Source of the DNA: Gammaproteobacteria bacterium
GTDB taxonomy: Bacteria > Pseudomonadota > Gammaproteobacteria > GCA-001735895
DNA length: 64,000 nucleotides
NCBI GenBank assembly: GCA_030595795.1
Contig: JAUVCH010000001.1
Coordinates: 1-64,000, forward strand
Reading direction: 5' to 3'
A program made the translations under genes and the position numbers. Below the pieces are notes generated by a model. It had not been told where the DNA came from. It saw only the letters and a program-made list of their open reading frames with translations, and did no database searches. Below, in pieces: positions 48,482 to 60,418 of this stretch; the first letter of the stretch is position 1; every line of letters begins with the position of its first letter.

Positions 48482-49792
48482 TTAAAACCTATCCCGCAAA
48501 GCAAAATAAGTCATTCCCAACACCAGCCCTGGATAGCGAAGCCAGGCTCCCCCGGGAAAAGATCGAGTAGGTAGTTTCCCAAACAAATCCAGTTTTTCGC
48601 TTTCTCCGGCAACCGCATCGGCCATGATTTTACCGCCGAGTGTGGCCATTGCGACACCGTGTCCCGAATAACCCTGGGCGAAATAAATACCACTATTATC
48701 GAGTCGACCGAAGTGTGGCATGCGATTGAGGGTGACAGCGAGTGTGCCGCCCCAGGCGTAGTCGATTTGTTTATCGGCTAGCTGAGGATAAATTTCTAGC
48801 ATCGGTTTACGCACGAAACTTTTTATATCCGCCGGGAAGTTACGGCCATAATTTTCCCCGCCGCCGAAGAGCAGGCGTTTGTCGGCTGAGAGTCGGTAGT
48901 AATTTATGACGAAGCGCGAGTCGGCGATGGCGACGTCATTTGGGTTGATCGAATTAGCAGTGGCTTCATCGAGTGGTTCGGTAGCGATGATGAAGTTGTT
49001 AATGGGCATGATCTTTCCGGCCATGCGCTTTTCGAGGTTGCCCAGATAGCCGTTGCAGGCGAGGATAACGGCATCTGCTTCGACCGTGCCGTGGTTAGTG
49101 ACGACTCGATTCGGTTTACCCCGTTGGTAGCTTTCGACAATGGTTGACTCATGCAGTATCGCGCCACTATTCCTGGCGGCATCGGCGAGTCCGAGCGCGT
49201 AATTCAGTGGGTGTAAATGGCCAGCACTCATATCCATGCTGCCACCGAAATAAGTATCACTACCGGTGACCTCTGCCATTGCCTCCTGGCTCAGGTATTC
49301 GATTTGGTCGTGTCGATATTGCTTTTGCAGGTGCTCGACATATTCGCGCGATTCTTTGGCGTATCCGGCTTTATGGTCGGGGTGTGCAACGCCGGGTTTG
49401 AGATCGCACTGAATGTCATTTTCGCTGATAATTTGCCGTGCCAGGTTTTTAGCCTCTTCCGCAAGCTGCCAAAGTTTGGTCGCATCGGATAGACCCAGAC
49501 GCTTTTCCAGATACCATTGATCTTTGCGTTGACCACTACCAAGCTGGCCACCATTTCTACCCGAAGCACCCCAGCCCATTTTTCGGGCTTCCAGCAATAC
49601 CACTTTATAACCGCGTTTGGACAGGTGTAGTGCGGCCGATAACCCGGTATAACCGCCACCGACGATGCAAACATCGGTTCGACAGGAGCCATCTAGTGGC
49701 GTCAGGTCGAGCTGTCGGTTTTGCGAGGCATGATAATAGGATGCCGGGTAGCTTTCGGTATCGCTGCGATCCTGGGAAAGTGTAAAACTCAT
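48482..49792 (-). CDS. puuB: Gamma-glutamylputrescine oxidoreductase-like FAD protein
   Basis: 436 aa. Start PASYYHASQNRQLDLTPLDGSCRTDVCIVGGGYTGLSAALHLSKRG and ARKMGWGASGRNGGQLGSGQR are the PuuB/OrdL signature; INNFIIATEPL, ADSRFVINYYRLSADKRLLFGGGENY and YFAQGYSGHGVAMATLGGKIMADA follow. It oxidises gamma-glutamylputrescine to the aldehyde, or directly another amine. The ATGA overlap with spuC and the puuA-like gene upstream form a three-gene putrescine unit. Confidence 0.88.
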   Translation of the reverse strand: MSFTLSQDRSDTESYPASYYHASQNRQLDLTPLDGSCRTDVCIVGGGYTGLSAALHLSKRGYKVVLLEARKMGWGASGRNGGQLGSGQRKDQWYLEKRLGLSDATKLWQLAEEAKNLARQIISENDIQCDLKPGVAHPDHKAGYAKESREYVEHLQKQYRHDQIEYLSQEAMAEVTGSDTYFGGSMDMSAGHLHPLNYALGLADAARNSGAILHESTIVESYQRGKPNRVVTNHGTVEADAVILACNGYLGNLEKRMAGKIMPINNFIIATEPLDEATANSINPNDVAIADSRFVINYYRLSADKRLLFGGGENYGRNFPADIKSFVRKPMLEIYPQLADKQIDYAWGGTLAVTLNRMPHFGRLDNSGIYFAQGYSGHGVAMATLGGKIMADAVAGESEKLDLFGKLPTRSFPGGAWLRYPGLVLGMTYFALRDRF

Positions 49793-51177
49793 TTTGTTTT
49801 TTTAACGTCTTGCTGGGTTAAATCCAGGCATTTCCAGGTGCGTTCGATAAATAGATCGATTTCTGTTTTTTGCAGAATTAAGGGCGGCGATATGATCATC
49901 GCATCGCCAACCGCTCGCATAATTAAATTATTATCAAAACTATGAGTGCGGCAAATAGAACCCACGCCGTCGTCTTTATCGAACTTGATAAAGTTTTCCT
50001 TGTCTTTAACCAGTTCCAGGGCGCCGAGCATGCCGACACCTCTAACCTGGCCTACCAGTGGATGATCGCCGAGTTCGCGCAGGCGCTTTTGCAGGTAGGG
50101 CGCGGTTTCGTCGTGAACTTTTTGCACGATGTTTTCCTTCTGCATCAACCTGATATTGGCTACCGCTGCGGCTGCGCACACGGGGTGTCCTGAATAGGTG
50201 TAACCGTGGTTAAATTCGCCGCCCTGGTTGATGAGTACATCGGCGACGCGATCCCCTACCATCACTCCGCCGATGGGTAAATAACCCGATGACAGGCCCT
50301 TGGCGATAGGCATTAAATCGGGCTTGAGGTCGTAGTAGTCGGTGCCGAACCAGTGACCAGTTCGACCAAAGCCACAGATGACTTCGTCCGCCACCAGCAA
50401 GATACCGTAGTGGTCGCAAATTTTCTTTACTTCTGGCCAGTAGGTCTCGGGTGGCACGATGACGCCACCTGCTCCCTGGATGGGTTCGGCGATGAATGCG
50501 GCGACTTTGTCGACGCCGAGCTCTTCGATTTTATCGGCGATCGATTGTGCGACTTCGAGACCGAATTCGTTAGCGTCCAGGTCATGGCCGAGTTCACAGC
50601 GTTTGGCGAACCAGTGTGGCTGCTCGACGTGTACGATATCGGGGATGATGCCACCCTGCTTGTGCATGTCTTCCATGCCGCCAAGGCTGGAGGCTGCGAT
50701 AGTGCTACCGTGGTAGGCATTTTTGCGGCTGATAATAACGCGCTTTTCGGGCTTGCCGAGAATATCCCAGTAGCGCCAGGCCATGCGGATAACGGTGTCG
50801 TTGGCTTCCGAACCCGAGCTGGTGAAGAAAGTGTGGTTCATGTGATCCGGAGTCACTTCTGCGAGTAATCCAGATAGCTCTGCGGCGGGTGGGTGCGAAG
50901 TCTTGAAGAATGCGTTGTAGTAGGGTAGTTGTTCGATTTGAGTGCTAACTGCTGCAATGATATCTTTTTGACCATAACCCATGTTGACGCACCACAGGCC
51001 AGCCATCATATCGAGATAATCGTTGCCTTCAGAATCGGTGAGGTAAACGCCGTGTGCCGACTCGATAATGCGAGCGGCCTGCTCTTTTAATTCCTTAGGG
51101 TCGGTAAATGGATGAAGATGATGGGCACCATCCAGGCTTTGCCATTTTTCGGTATTGACTGCGTTAGTTTGTGACAT
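49789..51177 (-). CDS. spuC: Putrescine/polyamine-pyruvate aminotransferase (class III, SpuC-like)
   Basis: 462 aa. SLDGAHHLHPFTDPKELKEQAARIIESAHGVYLTDSEGNDYLDMMAGLWCVNMGYGQ at the start is typical of SpuC. PLP motifs: TSSGSEANDTVIRMAWRYWDILGKPEKRVIISRKNAYHGST, LVADEVICGFGRTGHWFG and the Schiff-base Lys in MPIAKGLSSGYLPIGG. It moves an amino group from putrescine, cadaverine or spermidine to pyruvate. Other omega-aminotransferases look alike. Confidence 0.85.
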   Translation of the reverse strand: MSQTNAVNTEKWQSLDGAHHLHPFTDPKELKEQAARIIESAHGVYLTDSEGNDYLDMMAGLWCVNMGYGQKDIIAAVSTQIEQLPYYNAFFKTSHPPAAELSGLLAEVTPDHMNHTFFTSSGSEANDTVIRMAWRYWDILGKPEKRVIISRKNAYHGSTIAASSLGGMEDMHKQGGIIPDIVHVEQPHWFAKRCELGHDLDANEFGLEVAQSIADKIEELGVDKVAAFIAEPIQGAGGVIVPPETYWPEVKKICDHYGILLVADEVICGFGRTGHWFGTDYYDLKPDLMPIAKGLSSGYLPIGGVMVGDRVADVLINQGGEFNHGYTYSGHPVCAAAAVANIRLMQKENIVQKVHDETAPYLQKRLRELGDHPLVGQVRGVGMLGALELVKDKENFIKFDKDDGVGSICRTHSFDNNLIMRAVGDAMIISPPLILQKTEIDLFIERTWKCLDLTQQDVKKTK

Positions 51178-51252
51178 GCTGTGCTCCTGACTTGGTGCAG
51201 GCTCTATCGTCCTGCTTAAGTAAATTAAGGCTAAATAGTCTTGCTGGAAAAA

Positions 51253-52578
51253 TTAAACTTTGAGCAATAAATGCTCGCGTTCCCAGGGTGTAATGGTATT
51301 CAAAAATTCCTCAAACTCGACTTCTTTAATGGCGACATAGAGATCGATAAATTCGTCGCCGAGTACCTCCCGAAGTGCCTGACTGTCGGACAGCCGCTGC
51401 AACGCCTGATACCAGTTGCGTGATAATTCAAATGGCTTATTAAAGGCGTTTTCCAGCATTGGCTGGCTTGCCTTCATCGACTGCTTCATGCCGACATAAC
51501 CGCAGGCCAGAGAAGTCGCGATAGCGATGTAGGGGTTTACATCGGCAGAGGCGATTCGGTTTTCTATCCGCATCGAGTCTGGATTGTTGTCGGGCACGCG
51601 AAATCCAACGGTACGATTGTCGAAACCCCAATGTGCATTAATCGGCGCGGACATGTCACGTACAAAGCGTCGGTACGAATTTACGTAAGGTGCCATCAGA
51701 GCCTGAGCCTGTGGCAGGAGCTTTTGCAGACCGCCTATATGGCTAAGAAATAGCTTATTGGGCTCGCCATCAGGGGTGGAAAACAGGTTTTTCCGGCTTT
51801 CCAGGCCGACTACACTCTGGTGAATATGCATCGCGCTACCGGGTTGGTGTTCGACCGGCTTGGCCATAAAGGTCGCGTAAATCTCATTATGCAAAGCCGC
51901 TTCTTTAACCGTGCGTTTTAATAAAAAGGCCTGATCTGCTAGTTCCACCGGGTCGCCATGGAGTAGATTGATCTCCATTTGTGCTTTACCTTCTTCGTGG
52001 AGAAAGCTGTCGATCTGTAGTTGTTGTGCTTCAGCATAAGCATACATATCGTCTAGCACTGGTTGGTATTCATAGTTTGCTGCGATATTAAACGACTGTC
52101 CGTTTGACTCTGCGCGACCATTGCGACCTTTCGGTGGTTGCAATGGTTGATTTGGGTCTAAATTTGGCTTTACCAGATAAAATTCGAGTTCTGGCGCGAT
52201 CACTGGATCCCAGCCTTCGTTACGATACAACTCGACTACCTGGCGCAATACCTGGCGTGGAGCAATTTTGACTGGCTGCCCCTGTTTATCGAAGCAATCG
52301 TGAATTACCTGGGCCGAGTTGCCTTTCGCCCAGGGCAATCGGCGAATCGAGCCTGGGTCAGGCTGTAGTATCATATCCCTATCAAGAGGATTGATATCAC
52401 TTTGTAGATCAGGGTAACTACCCGCTAACGACTGCATGAAAATTGATTCGGGTAGTCGCAGCACGGAGGCATCATTAAATTTTGACGCGGACATTAGCTT
52501 GCCGCGAGCGGCACCAGCCATGTCAGAGACAACGCATTCGATTTCGGTGACCTGGTTTTTTTCGATCCAGTCTTGCAT
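51253..52578 (-). CDS. puuA: Glutamine synthetase family protein, gamma-glutamylputrescine synthetase-like
   Basis: 441 aa. GS motifs: VVSDMAGAARGKLMSASKF, PVIAPELEFYLVKP, EEGKAQMEINLLHGDPVELADQAFLLKRTVKEAAL, FMAKPVEHQPGSAMHIHQSV and NRTVGFRVPDNNPDSMRIENRIASADVNPYIAIATSLACGYVG. The HIHQS and missing adenylylation loop fit PuuA/SpuI rather than GlnA. First gene of the puuA-spuC-puuB unit; the GTGATCAC palindrome lies about 100 bp upstream. Confidence 0.88.
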   Translation of the reverse strand: MQDWIEKNQVTEIECVVSDMAGAARGKLMSASKFNDASVLRLPESIFMQSLAGSYPDLQSDINPLDRDMILQPDPGSIRRLPWAKGNSAQVIHDCFDKQGQPVKIAPRQVLRQVVELYRNEGWDPVIAPELEFYLVKPNLDPNQPLQPPKGRNGRAESNGQSFNIAANYEYQPVLDDMYAYAEAQQLQIDSFLHEEGKAQMEINLLHGDPVELADQAFLLKRTVKEAALHNEIYATFMAKPVEHQPGSAMHIHQSVVGLESRKNLFSTPDGEPNKLFLSHIGGLQKLLPQAQALMAPYVNSYRRFVRDMSAPINAHWGFDNRTVGFRVPDNNPDSMRIENRIASADVNPYIAIATSLACGYVGMKQSMKASQPMLENAFNKPFELSRNWYQALQRLSDSQALREVLGDEFIDLYVAIKEVEFEEFLNTITPWEREHLLLKV

Positions 52579-52680
52579 AAACTGCTACTCGTATTTAATG
52601 TAAATTTATTTCAGGCCGGATCTTGATCGGCTTGTGATAAAACCTGCTGCTTCCAGACATTGTATGCAACCATTCGGATA

Positions 52681-52692
52681 TTGTGATCACAA
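52681..52692. promoter_or_regulatory. Operator-like palindrome, copy 3
   Basis: TTGTGATCACAA, the best copy: a perfect 12-bp palindrome. It lies between the divergent puuA-like gene and the amidinotransferase-type gene at 52828, in an otherwise A/T-rich 249-bp stretch. Confidence 0.65.
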
Positions 52693-52827
52693 AATTAATA
52701 TAAGTCAACAAACCTGTTACTCTCTGATTATAGAAGAGTAATTGACAGTCTAAGTGACGGCGTGATAGCTTTTTCGCTCCATTTAAAGGGGCGGTTCCGA
52801 TAGCCCAACTATTTAGCAGGATTAATT

Positions 52828-53748
52828 ATGAATTCCGAATTTAAATTACGTGCAAGGAATGAGGGTGGTGGTACGCCAGCTCTCGATAACTGGGGCGCCG
52901 ATTGTGAATATGGCGTATTAAGAGACATCCTGTTAGGTCCTGCAGACCATTATCAGTGGTTAGAGACCAGTTCGGTTTCGAAGAAAAGTATTCGTCGCAA
53001 TTATCAATTCGATGCAAAGATCGCTCAGTCTCAACATGCCGAAATGGTTTCAGCTTACGAGTCTGCAGGCGTAAAAGTACACATGCACGCCGCCGACCCA
53101 GAATTGCCTTATCAGATTTTTGCCCGGGATTCGTCGGTTATGACGCCATTCGGGGCGATTATTACCAGCATGGCTAACTGGTGGCGTCGTGGCGAGAACT
53201 TTCGCGCCATCGAAACCTATGAGCGCCTGGGTATTCCGATTTATGATTATGTTACCGCAGGCACTTTCGAAGGTGGTGATTTCAATGTCGTCGAACCGGG
53301 CACGGTATTAATTGGCTGGGAAGGCGACGAGGGTCGTAGCCAACAGCAGTCCGCCGTGCAGTTGAAGAACTGGTTTGAGGCCGAAGGTTGGGAAGTCATG
53401 CTCACTGACCTTGATCCTTTCTATGTTCATATCGACTTAATGGTCGTTATGTTAGCGCCCAAGCTTGCGGCTGTGTGCCTGGAGTCAACCGACGCCGACG
53501 TGGTCGACTGGCTCAAGTCGAAACAAATCGAAATCATCAGCGTGCCGTTTAAAGACACGCTTGATCTTGGCTGTAATGTCGTGGCACTGGGTAATGATCG
53601 GGTGTTACTGCCAGAGAAAAGTCTGGTGCTCAAGGAGAAAATCAAAGCTCATGGTTTAGAGATTTACGACCCGGACGTGTCGATGATTACGCCCGGTGGT
53701 GGTGGAGTGCATTGTATGTGTCAGGCTTTGCGACGGGATCCGGGCTAA
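52828..53748 (+). CDS. Amidinotransferase/arginine deiminase superfamily hydrolase (paralogue)
   Basis: 306 aa. Same plan as the protein at 42936-43826: IFARDSSVMTPFGAII, GTFEGGDFNVVEPGTVLIGW, DPFYVHIDLMVVMLAPKL (His) and the C-terminal GGGGVHCMCQALRRD with the Cys nucleophile. The catalytic triad of guanidine hydrolases is complete. It is divergent from the polyamine unit across the TTGTGATCACAA site, so agmatine or another guanidino-polyamine is a possible substrate. Confidence 0.8.
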   Translation: MNSEFKLRARNEGGGTPALDNWGADCEYGVLRDILLGPADHYQWLETSSVSKKSIRRNYQFDAKIAQSQHAEMVSAYESAGVKVHMHAADPELPYQIFARDSSVMTPFGAIITSMANWWRRGENFRAIETYERLGIPIYDYVTAGTFEGGDFNVVEPGTVLIGWEGDEGRSQQQSAVQLKNWFEAEGWEVMLTDLDPFYVHIDLMVVMLAPKLAAVCLESTDADVVDWLKSKQIEIISVPFKDTLDLGCNVVALGNDRVLLPEKSLVLKEKIKAHGLEIYDPDVSMITPGGGGVHCMCQALRRDPG

Positions 53749-53801
53749 AAGAGTTACCCGGATAGTGAATTTATTCCTGTAGATTATTTTTGTTTTTCGC
53801 T

Positions 53802-53830
53802 TATACTTGATTATGGGAAATTTATCCCAT
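53802..53830 (+). promoter_or_regulatory. Promoter and inverted repeat before the Gly/Ser-rich protein gene
   Basis: TATACT at 53802-53807 is a good -10 box; the -35 is not obvious. ATGGGA and TCCCAT at 53813-53818 and 53825-53830 form an inverted repeat where the transcript would start, so it could be an operator or a 5' stem. GAGG lies about 10 bp before the ATG at 53855. Confidence 0.4.
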
Positions 53831-53854
53831 TTAATTTAAGTCGAGGCAATTCTA

Positions 53855-54178
53855 ATGACAAATGATATTAAAAAGCCTGAATTGGGCGATGAAACAGTAG
53901 ATACCAGCCGACGAAACGCGCTTTCGCGTCTTGGTCTGGTAGCGACGGCGGCCTATGCGGCTCCAGTATTAATGACATTAAGTCAATCGGCACATGCTTC
54001 TGGTGGTTCTGGCGGAGGTGGAGGCTCTGGAAACGGTGGAGGCTCTGGGAACGGCGGAGGTTCCGGTGGCTCTGGAAACGGCGGAGGTTCCGGTGGCTCT
54101 GGTGGCTCCGGCGGAGACTCAGATGGCGATACTGGTTCCTCAGGTGGATCGCTCGATGAAGACCAAACCACTGATTAA
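53855..54178 (+). CDS. Tat-signal Gly/Ser-rich small protein, putative modified-peptide precursor
   Basis: 107 aa in three parts: an acidic leader (1-18), a twin-arginine signal (SRRNALSRLGLVATAAYAAP, Arg19-Arg20, cleavage after AHA at about residue 48), and a mature tail of about 60 residues of Gly, Ser and Asn repeats ending in acidic SLDEDQTTD. No cofactor site or family domain is present. It sits directly upstream of an HprK-like/PqqD fusion gene. Similar small Tat proteins near PqqD-type proteins are known as unexplained neighbours; a substrate for Ser modification is inference. Confidence 0.75.
   Translation: MTNDIKKPELGDETVDTSRRNALSRLGLVATAAYAAPVLMTLSQSAHASGGSGGGGGSGNGGGSGNGGGSGGSGNGGGSGGSGGSGGDSDGDTGSSGGSLDEDQTTD
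54000..54117 (+). repeat. Gly-Ser-Asn codon repeats
   Basis: Tandem, imperfect units based on GGNGGAGGCTCTGGAAACGG and GGTTCCGGTGGCTCTGG encode the low-complexity tail. Codons vary between GGT, GGA, GGC, TCT and TCC, so the repeat is maintained at the protein level and is not a simple microsatellite. Repeat number is likely to vary between strains. Confidence 0.8.
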
Positions 54179-54220
54179 GACGCCCAATCTGACCGCTTTT
54201 TAATTATTTATGATTTACAC

Positions 54221-54252
54221 ACCGGACAGATATTTTGTCCGGTTTTTTTTTG
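54221..54252 (+). terminator. Rho-independent terminator between the two cassette genes
   Basis: Stem ACCGGACA/TGTCCGGT with a 7-nt loop and nine T following. It stands between the small-protein gene and the kinase-like gene (stop 54178, start 54292). Placed there it would give far more precursor than enzyme transcript, as often seen in peptide-modification loci. Confidence 0.85.
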
Positions 54253-54291
54253 CCCGTATTATTGAGTCAGATTTTAAACAGGAGTGGATGA

Positions 54292-55482
54292 ATGCCCGAC
54301 AGCATCGTGCATCTAAAGTTCGATGATATGTCGAAACTGGTTAAGTTTGTTGATTGCGGCGAACTGATTGAGTGTCTTGAAAGTGTTTTCCCGACCTGGA
54401 ATATTATTGAGGTCTCACCAGAAGATTCTGGCGAGGCTCCGATACTTTGTATTACCAGAGAAGATAATGCTTATTGCATCGATGGATTTTGGCTAGGAAA
54501 GCAGATGCATCGCGTAGACATAGTCGATGCCGCCTGTGGTCTGGTCGCCGAGCTGATTCGAGCTTATGTGCGGGAAGATCCTCAATTACTGTGTTTACAC
54601 GGTGCATCCGCAGAATTTGCTGGCAAACTGGTAATATTTCCTAGTCAATACAGGTCGGGTAAAAGTGTTTTATCGGCCTGTTTGGCATCCGCTGGAATTC
54701 AGTTGTACGGCGATGATGTTTTGCCTCTTAGTTTGTCGGAAGGCAAGGGGATTGCACCGGGTTTGGCGTTACGTTTGAGGCGGCCTTTACCTGAAAACTT
54801 AACCACAGAATCGTCAGAGTTTATCCGGGAGCACACTGGCCTAACCGGCAAAAATTATCAATATCTTGATCTTAGCAATGAACAATTAGCGCAAAAAGGA
54901 GCGCAAGCATCAATTGGTGCGTTTGTTTTGCTGGAACGCGAGGAAAATACGGTAGCGACATTCGAGGAAACCTCGGAGGCAGAAGTATTGCGGCAAGTTG
55001 TCTGGCAAAATTTCGCTCGTGAGGCAGAGGCCCCACATATCCTGGATGTGTTGAGTCAGTTAGTGGCGAATTCACAGTTCTATCGGCTCCGTTTCGACCG
55101 AGCTGAAGATGCGGTTAAGTTGCTTAAAGAAAAGTTTAAAACCTGGCCTGGTAGAGTAGACCATCTCAACAGGAAGCTGAAGCAGTCTGAAGTCAATAAT
55201 AAGCAAGCCTTACAACCAGAATATTTTATAAGAAAACCTGATACTAGCGTTATCCAGGTTGGCGATGATAGTTTTATAGCAGACAAACAGGGTGCTGCAA
55301 TACACCATTTGAATACCGTTGGAACTGCTATCTGGACACTGCTTGCCGAACCAGTGCGGGTCGAAGATATGACCGATTTATTGCTGACTGCCTTTCCTGA
55401 GATCGATGCCGATTCGACAACAGAGGATGTAAAGGAATTGATTAACGAACTAGTAGATAAGGGATTATTGCTAAGCGGCTAA
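54292..55482 (+). CDS. HPr kinase-like/PqqD fusion protein
   Basis: 396 aa. Residues about 95-150 resemble the HPr-kinase core: LLCLHGASAEFAGKLVIFPS, GKS at 123-125 inside SQYRSGKSVLSACLASAG (first P-loop Gly replaced), and LYGDDVLPLS. Residues about 310-395 are a PqqD/RRE-like domain: IQVGDDSFIADKQGAAIHHLNTVGTAIWTLLAEPVRVEDMTDLLL. HprK-related and PqqD proteins occur as separate partners in peptide-modifying systems (HPr-rel-A); here they are fused. The partner is probably the Gly/Ser-rich protein just upstream. Activity is not shown. Confidence 0.8.
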   Translation: MPDSIVHLKFDDMSKLVKFVDCGELIECLESVFPTWNIIEVSPEDSGEAPILCITREDNAYCIDGFWLGKQMHRVDIVDAACGLVAELIRAYVREDPQLLCLHGASAEFAGKLVIFPSQYRSGKSVLSACLASAGIQLYGDDVLPLSLSEGKGIAPGLALRLRRPLPENLTTESSEFIREHTGLTGKNYQYLDLSNEQLAQKGAQASIGAFVLLEREENTVATFEETSEAEVLRQVVWQNFAREAEAPHILDVLSQLVANSQFYRLRFDRAEDAVKLLKEKFKTWPGRVDHLNRKLKQSEVNNKQALQPEYFIRKPDTSVIQVGDDSFIADKQGAAIHHLNTVGTAIWTLLAEPVRVEDMTDLLLTAFPEIDADSTTEDVKELINELVDKGLLLSG

Positions 55483-55487
55483 GACGA

Positions 55488-56327
55488 CTAGTCCTCACCA
55501 GACATCTGCAATTCCAGTTGGCGTTGTTTTTGCTGCCGCAGCATTATCCAGGCAGCTAGTAGTACACCGATGGCGACTACTAAAATTATAATGGTCGCAA
55601 GTGCATTTATATCCGGCCGAAGACCCAGTCGCACCCGGGAGTAAATCAACATTGGCAGCGTGACCGCACCGGGGCCTGAAACAAAACTGGCAATAATTAA
55701 ATCATCCAGCGACAGTGTGAATGATAATAACCAGCCAGCGAGCATACCGGGCGCGATTAGAGGCAGGGTAATGTCGGTAAGCACTCGAAATGGTTTCGCG
55801 CCCAAATCCTGCGCGGCTTCTTCCAGGTCTTGCGCCATGCCAGCGAGTCTTGACTGGATGATGACCGCGACATAGGCCATGGAAAATGTGATATGGGCGA
55901 TGGTGATGGTGGTGAATCCACGCTTGTCCGGCCATCCGATAAATTCTTTTAGCGTAATAAACAACAAGAGCAGGGATAAGCCGGTGATGACCTCTGGCAT
56001 GACCAGTGGTGCGGTAATCATGCCGCTGAATAAGGTGCGCCCTTTGAATTGACCGAAACGCACCAGGGCCAGGCCCGCCAAGGTACCGAGTATGGTAGCA
56101 AAGCAGGCATTCACAGTGGCAATTTTCAAACTCAGAGTTACTGCGCGCCAAACTTCTTCACTTTCGAATAAAACACCGTACCAGCGCGTAGAAAAACCAC
56201 CCCACACCGGCACCAGTTTGGAATAGTTGAACGAGTATACGATCAACATGAGCATGGGAATATACAGAAAAGCCAGCCCGAAACAGGTGACTGTGAACAG
56301 GAATCGGGATTTCTTGCCGTTATTCAT
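55488..56327 (-). CDS. potI: Polyamine ABC transporter permease (PotI/PotC type)
   Basis: 279 aa, six membrane helices. N-terminal LFTVTCFGLAFLYIPMLMLIVYSFNYSKLVPVWGGFSTRWYGVLF is the PotI/PotC pattern. The EAA loop EEAAQDLGAKPFRVLTDITLPLIAPGMLAG contacts the ATPase. Overlaps the upstream permease gene by four bases (ATGA). Last gene of the minus-strand importer operon. Confidence 0.9.
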   Translation of the reverse strand: MNNGKKSRFLFTVTCFGLAFLYIPMLMLIVYSFNYSKLVPVWGGFSTRWYGVLFESEEVWRAVTLSLKIATVNACFATILGTLAGLALVRFGQFKGRTLFSGMITAPLVMPEVITGLSLLLLFITLKEFIGWPDKRGFTTITIAHITFSMAYVAVIIQSRLAGMAQDLEEAAQDLGAKPFRVLTDITLPLIAPGMLAGWLLSFTLSLDDLIIASFVSGPGAVTLPMLIYSRVRLGLRPDINALATIIILVVAIGVLLAAWIMLRQQKQRQLELQMSGED

Positions 56328-57235
56328 TTCGACTCCGTTTCTTTGCCTTGCACATGCTGATAAAGCATCATCGGCAATACTAGAACTAACAGCAGGGCAA
56401 TTGCGACCGCAGAAGCGACCGGCCAGTCGACATTGGCATTAAATTCGTTGTACAGAATTCGACCGATCATTAAGACGTTACCACCGCCGAGCAGGTCGGG
56501 TATGACGTATTCACCAGTCGCTGGGATAAAAACTAGCAAGGATCCGGCGATGATACCGGGCAGGGTCATCGGAACAGTAACGGTCAGAAATGTCGTTGCC
56601 GGTCGCGCACCGAGATCTTCAGCGGCTTCCAGCAGGGTCCAGTCGAGCTTTTCCATATTGGCGTAAAGCGGCAGTATCATGAACGGTAAATAAGTATAAA
56701 CAATGCCGACATAGACGGCGAAATGCGAATATAAGAGCCGAATCGGCTCATCAATGAGGCCAATTGCTATGAGTAAATTATTGATTGTCCCCTGATCGGC
56801 GAGCAGCCCCATCCAGGCGTAAACCCGAAGTAAAAACGAGGTCCAGAAAGGCAGGATAACCAGCATTAGTAAAATGTTTTTACGGGTCTGGCTGGAACGT
56901 ACGATAGCGTAGGCCATCGGGTAGCCGATGAGCAGGCAAATTAGAGTCGATATCGACGATATTTTTAACGAACTGATGTAGGTCTTAACGTATAAATCGT
57001 CTTCCCAGAGGTAGGCGAAATTGTCGAATACCAGTTTGATATGCATCACACCTTCATCGACCCAGTTGATCATCGGTAAAAATGGGGGGCTGGCTATGGT
57101 GGCTTCGGAGAGGCTTATCTTGAAAACGATGAAAAAAGGCGCGAGAAAGAATATCAGCAGCCAGAAGAAGGGGATGAAGACGACTACTGACTTCCAGTTT
57201 CGTTGCAGCGATCGGGATATCCCCTGCAATGTCAT
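56324..57235 (-). CDS. potH: Polyamine ABC transporter permease (PotH/PotB type)
   Basis: 303 aa. Membrane helices include VVFIPFFWLLIFFLAPFFIVFKISLSE and LLMLVILPFWTSFLLRVYAWMGLL; the EAA loop is EAAEDLGARPATTFLTVTVPMTLPGIIAGSLLVFIPATGEYVIPDLLGGG. YAWMGLLADQGTINN is a typical PotB/PotH segment. Overlaps the ATPase gene by four bases. Confidence 0.9.
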   Translation of the reverse strand: MTLQGISRSLQRNWKSVVVFIPFFWLLIFFLAPFFIVFKISLSEATIASPPFLPMINWVDEGVMHIKLVFDNFAYLWEDDLYVKTYISSLKISSISTLICLLIGYPMAYAIVRSSQTRKNILLMLVILPFWTSFLLRVYAWMGLLADQGTINNLLIAIGLIDEPIRLLYSHFAVYVGIVYTYLPFMILPLYANMEKLDWTLLEAAEDLGARPATTFLTVTVPMTLPGIIAGSLLVFIPATGEYVIPDLLGGGNVLMIGRILYNEFNANVDWPVASAVAIALLLVLVLPMMLYQHVQGKETESK

Positions 57236-58377
57236 TTGCTGAGTACCACCGAGCTGGAAGCTTCCCAGCTGAGATAAACTTCGTCTTCCCAGTCTATGGC
57301 CAGGTTGCCATCTTTGGGTCTGGAGAGGTTTGGTGAGGTGACCTCAATCAGCGTGTCATCGTCTATTTTGACACGATAAATCGAAATTTTCCCGAGGTAA
57401 GCGATATCGTGAACAACCCCTTTAACCTGATTAGCGCGCGCTTCATCCGGTGCCTGCTTTGATATTTTTATCTTCTCCGGGCGCAGTGCAACCCATACTT
57501 TGTGGCCCTCCTGAATTTCAAGTCCGTGGTCGATATAAATTTCACATTCGGGCTGTTTGCTCTGTACAACAACATGATCGGGACCATTCTCAATGATTCT
57601 ACCCTGAAACATATTGGCATTGCCGATGAAATTGGCAACCAGTCGTGATTCGGGGAATTCGTAAATTTCTGTCGGTGTGCCAATTTGCATAAATCGGCCG
57701 GTATCCATCACTGCGATACGCGTGGACAGCGTCATCGCTTCTTCCTGGTCGTGGGTGACGACGACAAAGGTGACGCCGAGTTGTTCCTGGATATTCATGA
57801 GTTCGAACTGAGTCTGCTCGCGTAGGCGTTTATCCAGAGCGGCTAAAGGTTCGTCCAGGAGTAGCACTTTAGGGCTTTTTACCAGGGCTCGGGCTAGCGC
57901 GACACGTTGCTTCTGGCCACCGGATAACTGGTGCGGTTTACGCTTACTAAACTGGGTGAGTTCGACCATGGCCAACATATCATCGACACGTTGTTTGATT
58001 TCGATTTTACCAAAACCTTCACGTTTCAGGCCATAAGCGACATTATTTTCGACCGTCATATGCGGGAATAGCGCGTAGGACTGAAACATCATGTTGACCG
58101 GGCGTTCATAAGGCGGCACATCGTTCATGTTAACGCCGTCGATAAAAATATTGCCGGATGATGGGGTTTCAAATCCTGCCAGCATTCTTAGCAGCGTTGT
58201 TTTGCCGCAGCCGGAACCGCCGAGCAGAGAGAAAAGCTCACCCTTGTAGATATCGAGATCCACATTGTCTACTGCGGTGAAACTACCAAATTGTTTGCTG
58301 ACGCTTTGAACCTTTATGAATGGTTCGGCATCGGAATCCATCCAGGGTCGATCCGTGTATTGAGAAGGGTCAGGCAT
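57232..58377 (-). CDS. potG: Polyamine ABC transporter ATP-binding protein (PotG/PotA type)
   Basis: 381 aa from the ATG reading MPDPSQYTDRPW; a start nine codons earlier lies in the upstream hairpin region. Walker A GGSGCGKTT, signature LSGGQKQRVALARAL, Walker B VLLLDEPLAALD, H-loop VVTHDQEEAM. The C-terminal TOBE domain (IEVTSPNLSRPKDGNLAIDWEDEVYLSW) is present. It powers uptake by the permeases encoded downstream. Confidence 0.93.
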   Translation of the reverse strand: MPDPSQYTDRPWMDSDAEPFIKVQSVSKQFGSFTAVDNVDLDIYKGELFSLLGGSGCGKTTLLRMLAGFETPSSGNIFIDGVNMNDVPPYERPVNMMFQSYALFPHMTVENNVAYGLKREGFGKIEIKQRVDDMLAMVELTQFSKRKPHQLSGGQKQRVALARALVKSPKVLLLDEPLAALDKRLREQTQFELMNIQEQLGVTFVVVTHDQEEAMTLSTRIAVMDTGRFMQIGTPTEIYEFPESRLVANFIGNANMFQGRIIENGPDHVVVQSKQPECEIYIDHGLEIQEGHKVWVALRPEKIKISKQAPDEARANQVKGVVHDIAYLGKISIYRVKIDDDTLIEVTSPNLSRPKDGNLAIDWEDEVYLSWEASSSVVLSK

Positions 58378-58408
58378 TGCGAGTAGCTCCACAACAAATA
58401 TCAATCAT

Positions 58409-58443
58409 AAAAAAACCGGAGTGACATGATATCACTCCGGTTT
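58409..58443 (-). terminator. Intra-operon terminator/attenuator after the binding-protein gene
   Basis: Perfect 12-bp stem AAACCGGAGTGA with a 7-nt loop. On the minus strand it is followed by seven T. It stands 12 bp after the binding-protein stop and before potG, so most transcripts should end here, leaving binding protein in excess over the membrane parts. Confidence 0.85.
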
Positions 58444-58455
58444 CGGGTTGTGGCC

Positions 58456-59559
58456 TTAATTTCCCGCTTTGAAGTTTGTCCAGGTGCGGGTACGGATGCG
58501 CTCGATTTTGGGAGGTACTACTGCCAGCGTGTACATTTTTGCAACCTGATCTGAGGTCGGGAAAGCTGCTGGACTGCCGGTAACCTCCTCATCAATCATT
58601 TTGATCGCTGAATAGTTGGCGGTTGCATACCAGGAGTAGTTGGAGTCGGCTGCTGCTACTTCGGGTCGCATCATATAGTCTAAAAATAAGTGTGCGTTTT
58701 CGATATTTTCCGCGTCAGCCGGAATCACCCAACCATCTACCCAGAGATTAGCTGCCCCGTCCCCAGGTGGCAGGAAGAAATCCAGAACTACACCCGTGTT
58801 GGCCTCTTCTGCACCAGACATCGCCAGTAGGCCATCAGGACCCCAGGTAACCGATACGCAAAATTCGCGTTGAGGCATTCTCTGGTAGGCGTAGTTATCA
58901 AAGGTTTTGATGTAAGGACGTACTTTCTTGAGCATGTCTTCGACTTTCTTGTAGTCTGCCTTGTTGTTTGAGGCTGGATCGAGTCCAAGATAGGCCAGTG
59001 CCATAGGGATGACATCGGTCGGAGAATCGAGGAAAGAAACACCACATTTTGCCAGCTCTTTCATATGCTTCGGGTCAAAGATCATGTCGAGCGAGCCAAT
59101 CGGAGCACCTGGGTGGGTTTTCAATACCAGTTCCTCATTATAGGTAACGCCATGCGTACCCCACATATACGGAATAACATATTGGTTACCAGGATCCCAG
59201 TTCGTCGAAAGCTGTGCCATGATAGATGCATCCATGTGCCTGAGATTAGACAGTTTTGAAATATCAATTTTTTGTAAAATACCACCCGGAATTAAGCGGC
59301 CTATTGCTGAACCTGAGTGGGCGACGACATCGTAACCCGAACTACCAGCTAGCAGCTTGGCGTCGATGGCTTCGACCGAATCGTAGTTATCGTAGATGAC
59401 TTTGATGTCATATTCTTTGGCAAAGTTGGCGATGGTTTCTTCGCCAATATACTCCGCCCAGTTAGTGACGTTAAGTGACCCAGCCGCGCTGACGGCGGAT
59501 GAGCCGACTATCATCACTGTGGCAAGTATGCCGTTAATAGTGTTCTTCGTTGTTTTCAT
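58456..59559 (-). CDS. potF: Polyamine (putrescine-type) periplasmic binding protein
   Basis: 367 aa from the ATG behind GGAGGAAC. Signal peptide MKTTKNTINGILATVMIVGS, cleavage near SAVSAAG. PotD/PotF landmarks: LNVTNWAEYIGEETIANFAKEY, VIYDNYDSVEAIDAKLLAGSSGYDVVAHSG, IPYMWGTHGVTYNEELVL and WVDGWVIPADAENIENAHLFLDYMMRPEVAA. The YMWGTHG pattern is close to PotF. First gene of the importer operon; a GTGATCAC palindrome lies about 125 bp upstream. Confidence 0.92.
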   Translation of the reverse strand: MKTTKNTINGILATVMIVGSSAVSAAGSLNVTNWAEYIGEETIANFAKEYDIKVIYDNYDSVEAIDAKLLAGSSGYDVVAHSGSAIGRLIPGGILQKIDISKLSNLRHMDASIMAQLSTNWDPGNQYVIPYMWGTHGVTYNEELVLKTHPGAPIGSLDMIFDPKHMKELAKCGVSFLDSPTDVIPMALAYLGLDPASNNKADYKKVEDMLKKVRPYIKTFDNYAYQRMPQREFCVSVTWGPDGLLAMSGAEEANTGVVLDFFLPPGDGAANLWVDGWVIPADAENIENAHLFLDYMMRPEVAAADSNYSWYATANYSAIKMIDEEVTGSPAAFPTSDQVAKMYTLAVVPPKIERIRTRTWTNFKAGN

Positions 59560-59682
59560 TAGTGTTCCTCCGGTGGACTGAATTATGATATTGGATGCCG
59601 GTTGCATCCGCAATCTTGTAGAATAGTATAACTTTAAAACTGTACTGAAACTTAATTGAGGCTCTGTTTTCTGCTCGATTAA

Positions 59683-59694
59683 TAGTGATCACAA
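59683..59694. promoter_or_regulatory. Operator-like palindrome, copy 4
   Basis: TAGTGATCACAA, core GTGATCAC, in the 190-bp gap between the potF and TetR-type genes, both on the minus strand. In the right place to control the importer operon. Confidence 0.6.
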
Positions 59695-59749
59695 AAACCA
59701 TGAATGTCAATCGGGTATTGTGGGCTTGTAGGTTTTACTGGTTTATTTT

Positions 59750-60418
59750 TCATGCTTCTTTCATAAACTGCCGAATTGATACCGATTCATTTGGATAAAT
59801 TATTTCGATTAATCGATATATCTCCTGTATTGCCTGCTGGCGCTTAAAGTTTGGCGGGCCGATTAAAAAGTTTTGCCAGAGTCCGTCGATTATGGCCTCA
59901 ATTGTTATAGCAGCAGAGTCGGCAGGAAGGGTGGCGCTGGTATTTTGCTCGATTTTCTGACATACCTGGCTTAAAGCTTCTGAAAAGGCACGGTCCTGTT
60001 CGCCGCAGAGAGACATATAAATAGGGCGTGAACGAGCTTCTCCCCAAAATGCGAACCAGACGCTGATCTTTTTGCGGCTACAGATAGACGCTCGAAATGG
60101 TACGGCAATCAGAGCGCAGAGTTGTTCAATCGGGCTTTTACCGGTCTCGGCTAATACACTCTTCCAGCAGCGTAAATATTCTTCACTGAGGTGACGTAAG
60201 GCCTGTTCCAGTAGTAAATCCTTGCTTTGAAAATGGAATATAACATTACCCTGCGAAACCCCTGCGTGTTTGGCGATATGGGCTAAAGTTGTTTGAGACA
60301 GGCCGAGTTTGTCTATGCAGTCGAAGGTTGCTTCGACTAATTGTTGCTTGCGAAACTCGCTTTGCCTGGCGCGACTTCGGCTGTGCAAATTTTTCTCGGT
60401 GACGCTGATTGCGTTCAA
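59750..60418 (-). CDS. TetR family transcriptional regulator (BetI-like)
   Basis: 222 aa, TTG start with GGAATAG upstream. N-terminal TetR HTH: FRKQQLVEATFDCIDKLGLSQTTLAHIAKHAGVSQGNVIFHFQSKDLLLEQAL. The C-terminal domain has the BetI-type segment ISVWFAFWGEARSRPIYMSLCGEQDRAF. BetI responds to choline and betaine aldehyde; this relative faces an aminotransferase-Rieske-flavoprotein unit, which it probably controls. It could also repress the potF unit downstream. Confidence 0.85.
   Translation of the reverse strand: MNAISVTEKNLHSRSRARQSEFRKQQLVEATFDCIDKLGLSQTTLAHIAKHAGVSQGNVIFHFQSKDLLLEQALRHLSEEYLRCWKSVLAETGKSPIEQLCALIAVPFRASICSRKKISVWFAFWGEARSRPIYMSLCGEQDRAFSEALSQVCQKIEQNTSATLPADSAAITIEAIIDGLWQNFLIGPPNFKRQQAIQEIYRLIEIIYPNESVSIRQFMKEA

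Follow-up and report, generated by a model that had tools for sequence, protein, structure and literature searches.

The linear polyphosphorylated peptides (LPPs) of Bacillota derive from loci (LppA/K/B/S/D/N) in which the HprK-like kinase LppK phosphorylates Ser of the precursor core (PMC13381572). In this system a variable core stands behind a conserved leader that is removed by signal-peptidase-like cleavage, and the loci, often envelope-linked, include a discrete RRE gene of the lasso-B1 type, a dedicated SpI peptidase, an NTP transferase and an MsbA exporter (PMC13381572). Lasso and LPP leaders dock on RREs through a demonstrated YxxPx[hydrophobic] motif, and this docking has been described by crystal structures (9x8z, 9x90) and by the mutants Y-16A and P-13A (PMC13381572). 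Modification by the kinases known from LPP and paeninodin systems is confined to a single Ser, and the S3T variant is left unmodified by LppK (PMC13381572). Paeninodin-type lasso peptides likewise rely on an RRE and an HprK-like kinase acting on Ser of a leader-guided precursor with a [W/Y]xxP motif. Related arrangements are found in the HprK_rel_A cassette (TIGR04352, TIGR04353 PqqD, NTP_transf_5), where an HprK-like kinase and a PqqD-like protein accompany an upstream Tat-signal protein, in SynChlorMet ScmC/ScmD (TIGR04249, TIGR04248), where an HprK-like protein is encoded beside a PqqD-like one, and in HPr kinase/phosphorylase (HprK/P), which has a P-loop Ser-kinase fold with His, GKS and DD.

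The window analyzed here, a stretch of 64,000 nucleotides of gammaproteobacterial DNA, contains a two-gene cassette consisting, in this order, of a small Tat-signal precursor, a hairpin/terminator and an HprK-like/PqqD fusion; all coordinates below refer to its forward (+) strand. The cassette has the HprK-like kinase, the lasso-B1-type RRE, the YxxPxV/L leader, the variable core and the predicted leader cleavage of LPPs. Unlike in LPPs, the RRE is fused to the kinase (as in most relatives), a Tat signal doubles as the leader, and Ser-rich repeats make up the core; the carriers are proteobacteria, whereas LPPs have been reported from Bacillota only. Furthermore, no SipW-like peptidase, NTP transferase or MsbA-like exporter was seen by eye among the ORFs at 49000-60000 of the window, and none recurs next to its relatives. 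The lasso cyclase, B2 protease and short lasso core of the paeninodin type have no counterpart in the cassette; with neither cyclase nor protease among the neighboring ORFs inspected by eye or among the recurrent neighbors of relatives, a lasso-peptide reading was rejected. An identity with the canonical HprK_rel_A cassette was also rejected, as the kinase part matches TIGR04352 with E 3.9e-9 and 36 bits against a curated cut-off of 200, and the upstream protein of that cassette is different (about 200 aa, a conserved Cys-SG..SGNLS, no YxxP and no repeat tail). About 19 of the 21 canonical TIGR04352 loci (L077-L097) encode that protein, which carries APVIMTLASRP and a conserved CTxSG..SGNLS, upstream of PqqD; it is a likely substrate of the uncharacterized HprK_rel_A system. 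Profile similarity to ScmC/ScmD is weak, and the fusion differs from HprK/P by an extra N-terminal part, a C-terminal RRE and an exported repeat protein as its presumed substrate, with no HPr substrate in view. A defense-system reading found no PADLOC match. By analogy, the cassette is best described as a variant of RRE/HprK-guided peptide phosphorylation, LPP-like in its presumed working and not classed as LPP. Neither a description of it nor any joining of PqqD/RRE with Tat or twin-arginine export was found in the limited literature collection searched, where the RRE-Finder papers do not mention kinases.

The precursor gene (53855..54178) encodes 107 aa comprising a Tat signal/leader and a Gly/Ser-rich tail. 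Its N-terminus is DTSRRNALSRLGLVATAAYAAPVLMTLSQSAHA; the stretch MTNDIKKPELGDETVDTSRRNALSRLGLVATAAYAAPVLMTLSQSAHA precedes the remaining 59 residues, which are largely Gly and Ser. The second gene (54292..55482) encodes a 396-aa HprK-like kinase with a C-terminal PqqD/RRE domain, and the ORF list contains both ORFs as the first-pass annotation had described them. The strong terminator that it placed after the precursor gene was likewise located as an intrinsic terminator/attenuator with a stem of 10 bp and a run of 8 T after it (54221..54251). A hairpin recurs in the precursor-kinase gap of relatives: over 27 gaps the folding z averages -3.06, and in 25 of them the perfect stem reaches 8 bp or more, versus a shuffled mean of 6.9. 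A conserved T-run terminator was rejected, the hairpin alone being conserved and a T-run following it in 5 of 37 loci. The hairpin probably yields an excess of precursor over kinase transcript, which would be expected for a precursor/enzyme pair. The cassette is flanked upstream by a DDAH/arginine-deiminase-like enzyme and downstream by convergent polyamine-type ABC permeases, neither of which recurs beside its relatives.

Directly upstream of the fusion, or of the kinase and PqqD genes where these are split, a small Tat protein is encoded in 37/37 testable loci. These are the non-redundant pairs whose upstream sequence could be read, and they come from alpha-, beta-, gamma- and deltaproteobacteria; the pairing is therefore more than chance. 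A homologous fusion lacking a small Tat protein nearby had been named beforehand as the observation that would tell against the pairing; this was looked for, and none occurred in the 37 loci. Neighborhoods are otherwise unrelated between relatives, though the pair is constant. Within the window's order the kinase is present in 11 of 41 genomes, with the small protein upstream at each locus inspected, and a leader HMM run over the same 41 genomes matched exactly these 11. In a 369-genome sample of the class, the leader HMM yielded no genome with a leader and no kinase, and the class-wide sample added five further full kinase loci, all with the small protein. The 33 loci obtained from a scan of GTDB contigs belong to gamma-, alpha-, beta- and deltaproteobacteria, among them Kiloniellales, Dongia deserti, Desulfobacterales and the Solemya velesiana symbiont; the small protein is present at every locus with enough upstream sequence, while L016, L035 and L042 reach contig edges. 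Four Shinella/Paracoccus plasmid records were also inspected, and an intact adjacent small ORF was present in three. In P. marcusii CP157 (L181 3351-4085) the leader is intact to YAAP, after which the frame departs from that of its relatives, and this precursor is possibly broken.

Kinase and PqqD form one protein in most loci and are separate adjacent genes in ten (L014, L037, L039, L043-L048, L070), where the partner small protein is the same as for fusions. In L067-L070 the kinase gene overlaps or directly adjoins the precursor gene. Among recurrent neighbors, no gene other than the pair was common to most loci, and a third dedicated gene common to all was rejected since the candidates, a beta-barrel and a lipoprotein, are lineage-specific. 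The proposal of a minimal system with no other linked gene thus holds for the window and fails for the family, in which some lineages add genes. A predicted outer-membrane beta-barrel adjoins the cassette downstream of the kinase in L022, L024, L025, L028 and L040; its gene is carried by the genomes with acidic SEP/SEM tails and, barring a contig-edge fragment in G025, by no others, and the barrel prediction rests on a sequence pattern, the protein having no Pfam match. In deltaproteobacterial and symbiont loci (L037, L039, L043, L044, L046, L047, L048) the operon includes a lipoprotein gene, which stops 32-68 bp short of the precursor gene and whose product has a 17-kDa-antigen-like C-terminus. 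The lipoprotein model (pLDDT 85.8) resembles E. coli YmcC and, weakly, RseB/MucB. The E. coli gene for YmcC lies in the group 4 capsule operon. In alphaproteobacterial loci the cassette is accompanied by genes for a sigma and an anti-sigma factor. The setting of the cassette is the cell envelope.

The leader is also found on larger proteins. Plasmid-borne subtilases of Shinella and Paracoccus (L180 2040-3377, L182 1245-2513) share their Tat-YxxP leader and Ser/Gly linker with the small precursor encoded next to them, and downstream of the kinase fusion in L035 (1296-2063) a leader precedes a Gly/Ser/Arg protein ending in a PepSY-like domain. The occurrence of leader and tail on such proteins indicates that leader-plus-tail is a module.

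The kinase part of the fusion (residues 1-281; 54292..55134) has an HprK/PEPCK-like fold. An AlphaFold2 model of the whole protein (pLDDT 90.1, pTM 0.87) retrieved PEPCK 1ayl (E 1.4e-6) and HprK 3tqf (E 5.2e-4) with Foldseek, the two folds being related. The GKS at residues 123-125 and GDDV at 140-143 matched the earlier claim exactly. Of these, the P-loop GKS (54658..54666) aligns with that of Coxiella HprK, and D141-D142 (54712..54717) is equivalent to, and aligns with, the HprK DD motif; both are invariant in 27 fusions, as is H103 (54598..54600), a His 21 residues before the P-loop Lys. The fusion thereby combines the fold, P-loop, His and DD of an HprK-like Ser kinase, and on the basis of the modeled fold and these invariant residues catalysis is plausible.

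The C-terminal domain (residues 311-396; 55222..55479), PqqD-like as the first-pass annotation had it, matches PF05402 with E 1.2e-10 and has the PqqD/lasso-B1 winged-helix fold of a peptide-binding RRE. Its profile matches include TbiB1 (E 1.1e-10), LppB 9x8z (E 4.8e-9) and PbaB1 (9x90), and Foldseek aligned it with the lasso RRE TbiB1 (5v1v) at TMt 0.87 and rmsd 1.5. D379 (55426..55428) is invariant in 27 fusions and, in an alignment to 9x8z, corresponds to LppB Asp70, which hydrogen-bonds the leader Tyr (PMC13381572); the match is consistent rather than specific because this Asp is common in other PqqD-like proteins. By analogy with these structures, the RRE domain of the fusion would bind its cognate leader.

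The leader has the features of a Tat substrate. Twin arginines R19-R20 (TSRRNALSRLGL; 53909..53914), invariant in 13/13 precursors of the order and 25/25 diverse leaders, are followed by a hydrophobic region and a predicted signal-peptidase site, AHA (residues 46-48; 53990..53998), with a probable cut after the nearly invariant A48. Most homologous precursors have an AxA-type site, and TatC is encoded in the window's genome; export of the precursor would proceed through Tat. Within the hydrophobic region lies YAAPVL (residues 34-39; 53954..53971), a YxxPx[L/V/I/F/A] sequence proposed as the PqqD/RRE docking site, in which Y and P are invariant. Residues 1-25 had been put forward as the PqqD-binding part; the motif instead falls at 34-39. 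Aligned leaders give the consensus RRxALxRLGLxxxxAYxxPxLxTLSxAxA with R, R, Y and P invariant, and the YxxP motif typical of LPP leaders is present in 37/37 kinase-adjacent leaders at a constant distance from RR. The full LPP consensus YxxPxVLxHQxIxFETxxS is not matched by the window leader, which reads YAAPVLMTLSQSAHAS.

Several comparisons indicate that YxxP is not a general property of Tat signals. [YW]xxP was found in 0/21 other twin-arginine-plus-hydrophobic N-termini across about 460 kb of three genomes, and both YxxP and the Tyr itself are absent from about 19 Tat proteins of canonical TIGR04352 cassettes. YxxP is also absent from the two paralogous Tat leaders with no kinase alongside, L062 and L063, which have AIAAP and AVTAP at the motif position. 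These Tyr-less paralogues were located at L063 1477-1752 (in the window genome, contig C142 near 84190) and L062 1351-1668, and one of the tails ends in CIGDVCI. Conversely, proteins of Kiloniellales-type loci (L020 8596-9267, L021 8669-9277, L023 8596-9285) contain an internal leader copy and a Gly/Ser tail, in which RR..RLGL and YxSPVLLTLSQAQAAS are kept and EDGTP replaces the hydrophobic run; the motif is therefore retained where Tat function is lost. By analogy with the lasso and LPP leaders, YxxP provides an independent argument that the leader may be bound by PqqD. In L109 (499-819) a WxxP variant (GWAIPVI) adjoins an HprK-like kinase and NTP_transf_5, recalling the W/Y split of lasso leaders.

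The mature Gly/Ser-rich tail (53999..54175) is the proposed phospho-acceptor array. Tail repeats of relatives are wholly different (GGS, SEP, SEM/SEA, KTRKSE, SAPSVS, VPS, GSSGSS, DAS, SRPSY, FHGGSRGGS), and Ser alone stays among the four commonest residues in every kinase-adjacent tail while the other residues turn over; the L047, L068 and L069 tails have few Ser. The commonest Ser/Thr spacing in many tails is a three-residue step. Retention of Ser as the sole constant residue through full tail turnover fits a Ser kinase, and the mixing of both Ser codon families within most tails argues against pure DNA slippage, so that the tail may be read from its composition as a Ser-kinase substrate array. 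Distant short relatives of the form SRRxF..YxAPxxLTLxA..A..GS (L102, L110, L113, L114, L123-L149) keep just Gly-Ser after the signal and adjoin HprK-like kinases in most genomes checked. Two or three short SRRxF..YxAP Gly-Ser precursors were observed per locus in L123, L142, L131, L144 and L148 (G141, G323), near HprK-like kinases that score under the TIGR04352 cut-off. Shared motifs at the extreme tail end, SGIxGGIxxGV and HPSRW/PHRW (deltaproteobacterial L037, L043, L048; L067-L069), could be sorting or anchoring signals.

Considering these results, we regard as probable an RRE-guided phosphorylation of the tail of the Ser-repeat protein, followed by Tat export and signal-peptidase cleavage. 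The first-pass reading, in which the fusion binds the leader and modifies tail Ser before Tat export, is supported. On its best reading the cassette would be a proteobacterial, Tat-exported counterpart of the Bacillota LPPs, one signal peptide serving as both RRE leader and export tag and the core being a Ser array. Within the cytoplasm, YxxPx[L/V] inside the precursor's Tat signal would be held by the PqqD/RRE domain, and the low-complexity tail would thereby be presented to the active site of the HprK-type kinase, which would phosphorylate tail Ser residues with ATP. The bound motif and Tat hydrophobic region would be covered and export delayed until the kinase lets go; since the RRE site lies inside the hydrophobic region, binding should exclude the translocase, and export would be gated by the fusion. 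Direct precedent for an RRE covering a Tat h-region was not found. The freed precursor would cross the Tat pore, the general signal peptidase would cut after AxA, and the polyanionic Ser-phosphate tail would stay periplasmic or reach the cell surface. An array of phosphoserines may nevertheless be too much, given the single-Ser modification by LPP and paeninodin kinases, and low-complexity Gly/Ser tails can drift Ser-rich via repeat slippage.

A real alternative to the array, although we consider it unlikely, is phosphorylation of one essential Ser close to the cleavage site, acting as a processing or export checkpoint; the long tail would then serve passively, as a structural or adhesive polymer. 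This alternative draws on the precedent of LppK (core Ser3) and the paeninodin kinases acting on one Ser, and on the poor cleavage of the unphosphorylated LPP precursor (PMC13381572). Gly-Ser right after AxA is kept in the short relatives (GSA, GGS, NGS; L110, L113, L123-L149), and window-type tails begin S-G-G-S. However, the constancy of Ser along the whole length of otherwise changing tails would be left unexplained.

Less probable still is that phosphate is an intermediate, with another enzyme converting the Ser-phosphate, by transfer of a nucleotidyl or sugar group, into some other final decoration. Such chemistry would agree with the NTP_transf_5 genes (PF14907) adjoining distant Tat-YxxP/HprK cassettes and with the NTP transferases adjoining LPP and paeninodin clusters (PMC13381572), but the window cassette has no linked gene of this type, and none recurs among its 37 close relatives. 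The YxxP site inside the Tat hydrophobic region would also suit a PqqD acting solely as a Tat proofreading chaperone, with the kinase-like domain as a nucleotide-driven release switch and the tail unmodified. Binding of signal peptides is a property of Tat proofreading chaperones, DmsD and NapD among them. This account appears very improbable in view of the His, GKS and DD invariant in 27 fusions, the separate kinase gene kept in ten split loci, and the NTP_transf_5 genes downstream in relatives L103 and L109, which suggest chemistry on the product. A chance neighborhood, in which the small ORF is a repeat-driven artifact (the low-complexity tail DNA of the window does open antisense ORFs too) and the kinase has another substrate, has a negligible probability and is refuted by protein-level conservation of the leader, the invariant RR, Y and P, and recurrence in 37/37 loci.

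Beyond the favored reading of RRE-guided tail phosphorylation before Tat export, a wider proposal is possible and is advanced only tentatively. The cassettes may represent an undescribed and widespread class of proteobacterial Tat-exported phosphoproteins, in which one short peptide unites the roles of RRE leader and Tat signal, the RRE functions as a Tat proofreading chaperone permitting export only of kinase-processed precursor, and leader plus Ser-tail forms a portable module, carried by enzymes too (the subtilase of Shinella/Paracoccus, the PepSY protein of L035), that makes exported poly-phosphoserine segments.

If the reading is true, leader-guided peptide modification and Tat export, hitherto separate fields, would be joined, and the double use of one peptide as Tat signal and RRE leader would show how export of an intact protein can be coupled to, and made conditional on, its modification. 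Such HprK-type RiPP kinases would then extend to the proteobacteria, with a repeat array as substrate, and tails in which only Ser is constant would provide a natural substrate set for finding the requirements of the kinase. Culturable carriers, namely Dongia deserti, Paracoccus marcusii and Shinella sp., make the proposal directly testable. For the cells that carry the cassette, exported tails bearing several phosphates could serve in metal binding or have a role in the cell envelope.
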